Assembly (NCBI GenBank): GCA_021848385.1 | Contig: JAJZUQ010000010.1 | Coordinates: forward strand, 1 to 64,000 | Length of the DNA: 64,000 nucleotides | Origin: Deltaproteobacteria bacterium | Lineage (GTDB): Bacteria > Desulfobacterota > Desulfuromonadia > Geobacterales > Geobacteraceae | Direction: 5' to 3' | Shown here: positions 36,470-37,375 of the stretch, piece after piece | Position numbering within the stretch: position 1 is the first letter of the stretch | Layout of the letters: the number at the start of each line of letters is the position of its first letter | Program-made: the position numbers and the translations under genes | The notes under the pieces: generated by a model | What the model was told of the DNA's origin: nothing | What the model saw: the letters and a program-made list of their open reading frames with translations, nothing else | Databases searched by the model: none

Positions 36470-36495
36470 AAAAGGGGGCGTTTCCGCCCCCTTTT
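36470..36495. terminator. Bidirectional terminator between ppdK and the UGA-containing gene
   Basis: An 11-bp stem AAAAGGGGGCG/CGCCCCCTTTT with loop TTTC has A and T runs on both sides and works in both directions. It directly abuts the stop codon of the minus-strand small ORF. Confidence 0.9.
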
Positions 36496-36641
36496 CATTT
36501 GCTGCAATCGCAATCTCCCATAGTACCGCTGGCAAAAGGCATCTTTTTGCCGCACTTCTGGCACCGCCAGAAGAGGCCCCCTCAGCCGGGGAGCAGTATC
36601 ATGGACCCTTCACATTCAGGGCAGGTTTTCTCTGTTTCCAT
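36495..36641 (-). CDS. Small zinc-ribbon protein with in-frame UGA, candidate selenoprotein
   Basis: This ORF is missing from the supplied track because TGA is codon 20. Reading through, the 48-residue product is METEKTCPECEGSMILLPG-U-GGLFWRCQKCGKKMPFAS... with Cys pairs CPEC and CQKC, a C4 zinc ribbon like those at topoisomerase I C-termini, and a CDC near the end. Signals of a real gene are GGAGG seven bases before ATG, its own promoter upstream and a strong terminator at its stop. A perfect hairpin with a CGGUG loop begins eight bases after the UGA, as expected of a bacterial SECIS element. Alternatively, the codon is a nonsense mutation: related zinc ribbons often have a basic residue there, and CGA to TGA is one change. 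Length is within the normal range for a stand-alone zinc ribbon. Confidence 0.55.
36555..36573 (-). promoter_or_regulatory. SECIS-like hairpin downstream of UGA codon
   Basis: On the minus strand CTTCTGG pairs perfectly with CCAGAAG around the 5-base loop CGGTG. The loop begins 15 bases after the UGA. A lower GCC/GGC pairing with an unpaired U on the 5' side can extend the stem. The GGU in the loop and an unpaired U are features of bacterial SECIS hairpins bound by SelB. The distance is slightly shorter than in E. coli fdhF. Confidence 0.45.
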
Positions 36642-36671
36642 GACTCATCCTCCAAATAAAGTGGTGGGTAA

Positions 36672-36701
36672 AATGTAATCCGGAGCAGGGTAAGATGTCA
36701 A
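36672..36701 (-). promoter_or_regulatory. Putative promoter of the UGA-containing zinc-ribbon gene
   Basis: Minus strand TTGACA (perfect -35), 18-bp spacer and TACATT. It lies 31 bp upstream of the start codon, between the FAA hydrolase stop and this gene. Confidence 0.5.
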
Positions 36702-36718
36702 TAATATAAATATAGCTA

Positions 36719-37375
36719 TTACTTGACTGTTACCTTGAGTGCACCGACTCCGCTTATTTCGGCATACACCAGATCACCAGGGACAAGCGGGCCGACCCCC
36801 GCCGGTGTGCCGGTGAGGATGATGTCGCCCGGTTCCAGGGTGAAGATGGTCGAGATATGACTGACGATCCGGGTGACGGAGTGGATCATCAGCGAGGTGC
36901 TGCCATCCTGCCGCAAGTCACCGTTAACGGTCAACCTGATTTGCAACTGTTGGGGGTTGTCGACCATGCCGGCAGGGACGAAGTCGGACAAAGGGCAGGC
37001 GGTGTCGAACCCCTTGGCGATCTCCCACGGGAGCCCCTTTTTCTTCAGTTCATCCTGGACGTCCCGCAAGGTCAGGTCAATGGCGACGCCATAGCCGGCC
37101 AGATGGGAAAGTGCCTGGTCAACGGGGATGTCCTTGCCGCCGGTTCCGATAAGGAGTGCCAGTTCCGCCTCGTGGTGACAGTTCTTCGAATAGGGAGGGA
37201 TGACGATCTCATCGCCGTCGCCGATGACAGAAGTGGCAGGTTTCATGAAAATAACGGGAGCAGCAGGTGTCTCGTTCCCCAATTCCTTGATGTGGTCAAC
37301 GTAGTTGCGGCCGATGCAGAGAATCTTGCCGATGGGAAATTCCTTGCCGACAGCGGGGATACGGGCGGTTTTCAT
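36719..37375 (-). CDS. Fumarylacetoacetate hydrolase family protein
   Basis: This 218-aa enzyme of the FAH fold carries KILCIGRNYVDHIKELG, the metal-binding Glu pair in HHEAELALLIG and the downstream Asp in AIDLTLRDVQ. Members hydrolyse or decarboxylate acylpyruvates and oxaloacetate-type compounds. The single-domain form is most like acylpyruvate hydrolase/oxaloacetate decarboxylase (YcgM-like), but the substrate cannot be assigned here. The gene is transcribed with the radical SAM gene upstream, 52 bp away. Confidence 0.85.
   Translation of the reverse strand: MKTARIPAVGKEFPIGKILCIGRNYVDHIKELGNETPAAPVIFMKPATSVIGDGDEIVIPPYSKNCHHEAELALLIGTGGKDIPVDQALSHLAGYGVAIDLTLRDVQDELKKKGLPWEIAKGFDTACPLSDFVPAGMVDNPQQLQIRLTVNGDLRQDGSTSLMIHSVTRIVSHISTIFTLEPGDIILTGTPAGVGPLVPGDLVYAEISGVGALKVTVK

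Follow-up and report, generated by a model that had tools for sequence, protein, structure and literature searches.

A small minus-strand gene with an in-frame UGA

The window considered here is the whole 64,000-nucleotide stretch of DNA that was analysed. On its minus strand lies a gene of 49 codons, counting the stop, in which codon 20 is TGA. Translated with TGA as U, the product is METEKTCPECEGSMILLPG-U-GGLFWRCQKCGKKMPFASGTMGDCDCSK, followed by the stop. The standard ORF list of the window has no entry for this gene; plain ORF calling misses it because of its UGA stop codon, which is very probably used for selenocysteine (Sec). The features of the locus are as follows:

36495–36641, minus strand: predicted selenoprotein gene of 48 residues plus stop, with a C4 zinc ribbon, Sec20 and a C-terminal CxC tail (translation with TGA as U; 28 and 42 strong orthologues)
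36582–36584, minus strand: UGA codon 20, very probably read as selenocysteine (TGA in every strong orthologue from read-through searches)
36555–36573, minus strand: putative bSECIS hairpin, CUUCUGG-CGGUG-CCAGAAG (no third-position changes in six degenerate codons, 44 sequences; published bSECIS rules; −10.9 kcal/mol)
36649–36653, minus strand: Shine-Dalgarno sequence GGAGG, 7 nt 5′ of the ATG (read from the sequence; a similar motif in 44 of 44 orthologues)
36672–36701, minus strand: predicted promoter TTGACA-18-TACATT (consensus scan)
36470–36495, minus strand: predicted Rho-independent terminator, probably common to the convergent ppdK-like gene (read from the sequence)
36722–37375, minus strand, stop codon at 36719–36721: upstream neighbour, a fumarylacetoacetate hydrolase (FAH) family protein, FAHD1/YcgM-like (Pfam PF01557, E 5e-65; NF007967 over cut-off)

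A sequence-only reading had proposed a 49-codon gene outside the ORF track with UGA at codon 20, preceded by GGAGG and a -35/-10 promoter and followed by a terminator, and each of these elements is borne out. The promoter matches the consensus at 10 of 12 positions, where 0.2 such sites are expected in shuffled sequence, and its TTGAC element, along with an upstream AT-rich stretch, is kept in most relatives in which the gap to the preceding gene is long. The terminator, which follows the selenoprotein stop, is a GC-rich hairpin of 11 bp capped by GAAA; it went unlisted in the terminator scan because its T run numbers only four. Similar hairpins follow the gene in most of the relatives examined.

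Upstream of the gene, within 36640–36720 (minus strand), we also noticed a TATTTATATTATTGAC-like stretch that is conserved in most of the relatives whose intergenic gap is long (L005–L012, L025, L123 and L126). We read it as a conserved promoter, possibly including an UP-like element or a regulator site.

Conservation of the UGA codon and of the hairpin beyond it

To find orthologues, whole genomes were read through stops, in a family set of 48 genomes and a class sample of 195. Strong orthologues are present in 28 of the 48 family genomes, which hold one frameshifted copy besides, and in 42 of the 195 class genomes, all of the latter from three families (f1–f3) of one order; strong matches in a phylum sample are confined to the same order. 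Each strong orthologue contains exactly one in-frame stop, always TGA and always at the same position (28/28 in the family, 42/42 in the class). Neither TAA nor TAG was ever seen at this site among them, and none of the 28 and 42 carries Cys, Arg or Lys there. The search would have given a Cys or Arg version at least an equal score, and none emerged. Likewise, no Cys or Arg version was found 3′ of the FAH gene at the readable loci of genomes that lack the selenoprotein gene, a count that leaves aside L138, L145 and L146 (end of the FAH gene unlocated) and L140 and L143 (anchor in the wrong frame).

These data bear on the idea, raised as an alternative by the sequence-only reading, that an Arg or Lys codon such as CGA has mutated to TGA in this one genome and left a pseudogene. 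Many zinc ribbons do have a basic residue between their knuckles, and the genome to which the window belongs is a draft in 122 contigs. The same TGA is found, though, in all strong orthologues, among them those of the isolates Geobacter sp. AOG1, Geomobilimonas luticola, Citrifermentans bremense and several Geomonas, which rules out an error of assembly. Versions with CGA or AAA were looked for and not found, and purifying selection persists downstream of the codon. We regard a nonsense mutation as hardly credible, and on the orthologues it is rejected.

Two matches call for comment. L053 (Lachnospiraceae) is a chance match that lacks the second CxxC, and G032, which looked like a split gene, reflects a frameshift in that assembly and has an intact hairpin.

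For codon analysis, 44 distinct sequences were gathered with a pattern that requires TGA, so the unbiased counts for the UGA itself are the 28 and 42 given above. At codons +1, +2, +10 and +11 relative to the UGA, the amino acids are invariant while the third base is free to vary, with 0 amino-acid and 5–10 synonymous changes, which implies that the region is translated beyond the UGA. All 44 orthologues have a C-terminal tail with at least two Cys. These are the patterns expected of a protein-coding gene before and after the UGA alike, in line with the earlier suggestion that a single protein spans it.

Between these codons the pattern is different. Codons +3 to +9 (CTC TTC TGG CGG TGC CAG AAG) are identical to the third base across the 44 sequences, the one exception being a Leu-to-His change at +3 (CTC to CAC) in a single sequence, in which the third base, a stem base, is unchanged. 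Six of the seven codons are degenerate, yet not one synonymous change is seen. By parsimony, there are 0 third-position changes within the hairpin versus 5–10 per invariant-residue codon outside it, as counted on a tree built from 66 nt without the hairpin, so that these counts are rough. A Poisson estimate puts the chance of zero changes in the hairpin near e^-37.

The RNA encoded by these codons can form a 19-nt hairpin, starting 8 nt 3′ of the UGA, with stem CUUCUGG/CCAGAAG and loop CGGUG. The sequence-only reading had described this hairpin with 7 bp; counting the closing C-G pair, the stem has 8 bp. Published rules for bSECIS elements specify a loop of 3–9 nt, a stem of 4–16 bp, a G within loop positions 1–2, a loop 16–37 nt past the UGA and an MFE of −7.5 or lower (PMC13188914). 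With 8 bp, loop GGU, 16 nt and −10.9 kcal/mol for the 19-mer, the hairpin falls within all of these ranges, and its loop also fits the bSECIS rule N-G-G-N-N. The distance from UGA to loop, 15–16 nt, is at the lower limit of the published range; counted with a 7-bp stem it is 15, just outside. When the surrounding 50 nt are folded, the energy is unremarkable (z = −1.3), and for this reason we take conservation, rather than energy, as the evidence for the hairpin. There is no covariation in the stem, which is invariant. Conservation of the downstream hairpin in relatives was one of the checks set out with the earlier proposal; it is conserved base for base, synonymous sites included. Fixed at every synonymous site, the hairpin is a clear example from nature of RNA constraint superimposed on coding sequence.

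The genome also contains the means to decode UGA as Sec. Family searches identify SelA (613 bits) and SelB (369 bits), SelD is present and carries an in-frame TGA of its own, and ARAGORN finds tRNA-SeC with anticodon TCA. It is conceivable that the UGA is instead a true stop, or is subject to regulated or near-cognate read-through (inserting Trp, for example), with the hairpin serving a regulatory role and no Sec involved. Conserved hairpins past a stop may have other roles, and our Sec reading is drawn from sequence. Against this, the sequence beyond the UGA is still under coding constraint, the loop has the bSECIS form, the Sec machinery is complete, homologues in the wider family have Cys at the same column, and the codon is never TAA or TAG. 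Termination or read-through of this kind seems to us very unlikely, and UGA codon 20 is, with high confidence, decoded as selenocysteine. In the mechanism we envisage, once the ribosome arrives at UGA codon 20, SelB carrying Sec-tRNA(UCA) would bind the hairpin that begins 8 nt past this codon, and selenocysteine would be inserted in place of termination. The product would be a 48-residue selenoprotein with a C4 zinc ribbon (CPEC...CQKC) and a conserved two-cysteine tail, in which Sec20 would sit at the turn of a beta-hairpin between the two zinc knuckles.

Relationship to NF041197 and other dual-CXXC proteins

The sequence-only reading had called this a candidate new small selenoprotein. The selenoprotein part of that claim holds up, but the protein is not an isolated new family, since its spacing and profile similarity point to a sister relationship with NCBIfam NF041197. 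The latter, named "dual CXXC motif small (seleno)protein", is listed as OS_HP3 (RxU) and DW (GxU) in a 2026 review (PMC13188914). The 48-residue protein has the spacing C-x2-C-x9-U-x6-C-x2-C, equal to the C-x2-C-x9-[CU]-x6-C-x2-C of NF041197, and matches the model with 23.9 bits (E 3.4e-5), below the curated cut-off of 40 bits. The match ends at position 30–31 of 53, leaving the C-terminal segment 32–53 unmatched. In a profile-profile comparison, the Geobacter-type subfamily aligns to NF041197 over 31 columns at E 5e-12 (97.5 percent), and Sec occupies a shared column. Members of NF041197 have either Cys (most of L058–L080, and L085) or Sec (L081–L084 and L086) at this column, and in a second, lower-scoring GxU group most members have Sec. 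Exchange of Sec and Cys is seen in the wider family only; no Cys orthologue was found inside the subfamily.

Is the protein then merely a divergent member of NF041197? The shared spacing and Sec column, the profile-profile score and the existence, in other families, of intermediates with an FWRC block speak for membership. One such intermediate, L156 (CKHCGGLIVLVRTURAVFWRCKECG), scores 59.5 bits against NF041197 and is matched by the subfamily profile at 2e-6. On the other hand, the direct score of 24 bits falls short of the 40-bit cut-off, homology is limited to the ribbon, the C-terminal E..DRI segment of NF041197 is replaced by a CxC-type tail, and NF041197 has no match at E<=0.001 in any of the same-class genomes listed in the phylum sample. 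We consider simple membership a serious possibility but the weaker reading, and file the protein as a sister subfamily of NF041197 in the Geobacter order because of its score, the missing model C-terminus and its own two-Cys tail. On profile and motif comparison, it appears to be neither a member nor an isolated family.

Several further differences from NF041197/OS_HP3 are apparent. Both proteins are small, with Sec on the same column, and the Sec members of NF041197 also have a downstream hairpin with a GGU-type loop. Our protein has PGU rather than RxU, no Cys form of it has been seen, and its hairpin, which lies near the UGA, differs in sequence and is fixed. A consequence of the missing Cys form is that detection via Cys homologues would miss the subfamily. 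Hypothetical protein DW, the GxU form, was reported in the deep-Sep paper (PMC12013277) and is placed under NF041197 in PMC13188914. Taking GxU loci as DW on the basis of their motif, DW is likewise small and dual-CxxC with Sec on the same column; unlike our protein it has "GGxA" and a Tyr/Glu-rich tail, and direct similarity between the two is weak (hhalign 48 percent). The selenoprotein DG (NF049953) has the motif GUxG, which fits our PGUGG, and CxxC ribbon motifs occur in both. DG, however, is 172 residues long and carries CxxC pairs at each terminus, with a domain between them. It was rejected as the family of the 48-residue protein, which does not match the 172-position model at E<=10, and the model has no match in the source genome.

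The subfamily is not mentioned in the selenoprotein literature searched, a scope that excludes Deng et al. 2026, the Olavius symbiont paper and NCBI protein records. It appears to be an unreported selenoprotein subfamily, added to a well studied bacterial order.

Other observations concern the wider family. L156, L159 and L162 are NF041197-like proteins with "U-R-x-x-FWRC", whose FWRC block is shared with the Geobacter subfamily; judged by this motif, they may be its closest outgroup. Many Desulfobacterota genomes (L088–L107; for example L091, L094 and L103) have a strong NF041197 match together with a second dual-CXXC Sec protein of the G-x-U type (CxxCGGxAxIxGRU). Some of these G-x-U proteins fell below the cut-off of NF041197 when the genomes were searched, and from their motif they are probably the "DW" of deep-Sep. 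Finally, at position 498 (plus strand) of L105 there is a dual-CXXC-like frame, CPACQKERLIVRACUQGLEISCPGCG, in which Cys and then an in-frame TGA (C-U) lie between the knuckles, a possible further Sec variant.

Structure, gene neighbourhood and possible roles

An AlphaFold model of moderate confidence (pLDDT 74, pTM 0.50) shows a zinc ribbon in which strands 13–19 and 22–27 flank Sec20, which places Sec at the turn. Zinc binding and the ribbon fold are predictions from this model. The best shapes found by Foldseek are RPB9/Rpc10-type ribbons and Thermus ZifS, with E 0.15 at best and none significant. ZifS (TTHA0897) resembles the model in its zinc-ribbon shape (rmsd 1.3 over 32 columns, TM 0.59); however, the entry titles of ZifS and the RPB9-type ribbons mention no Sec, and with Foldseek E >0.1 the likeness is one of shape only. 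A sequence search against solved structures gave nothing significant.

The gene immediately upstream offers a second clue. In 37 of the 44 orthologue loci (L004–L127), the next gene upstream, also on the same strand, belongs to the FAH family (PF01557) and is separated by a gap of 17–113 bp. The pairing occurs in at least two families, with differing genes farther upstream, and genomes of genus g13 have neither the selenoprotein gene nor the FAH gene. The shortest gaps, of 17–33 bp, are found in Geomonas, Citrifermentans and some f2 genomes and suggest co-transcription with the FAH gene; at the loci with longer gaps, the TTGAC promoter element described above is retained in most relatives.

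On this basis, namely the anatomy of the protein and one neighbouring gene, we offer a tentative guess at function. The product could act in the cytosol as a redox protein whose Sec would attack an oxidant, an electrophile or a metal-thiolate, with the C-terminal dithiol as the resolving partner, and it could be functionally tied to its FAH-family neighbour. More broadly, it might be speculated that this subfamily, Sec-only, restricted to the Geobacter order and never found with Cys, with its hairpin frozen base for base, represents an undescribed redox or metal-thiolate module of keto-acid (FAH-family) metabolism, built on a turn-exposed Sec and a C-terminal dithiol. Alternatively, the ribbon may be mainly structural, or bind nucleic acid or RNA polymerase, with Sec tuning affinity for zinc or heavy metals instead of serving redox chemistry. 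The weak resemblance in fold to RPB9/Rpc10-type ribbons and to ZifS points in this direction, whereas the modelled position of Sec, at the turn and away from the zinc knuckles, and the conserved tail dithiol, which suggests redox resolution, argue against it; we think such a role possible but less likely than not. A protein of 48 residues is readily expressed, so that what Sec does in a zinc ribbon can be put to the test.

Lastly, the region downstream of the FAH gene differs among relatives. In six that lack the selenoprotein gene (L147–L152), a phospholipase-D/cardiolipin-synthase-like gene comes straight after the FAH gene; a gene of this kind also stands just 3′ of the selenoprotein gene in L041, L111 and L117. 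These junctions look like clean gain or loss of the selenoprotein gene.
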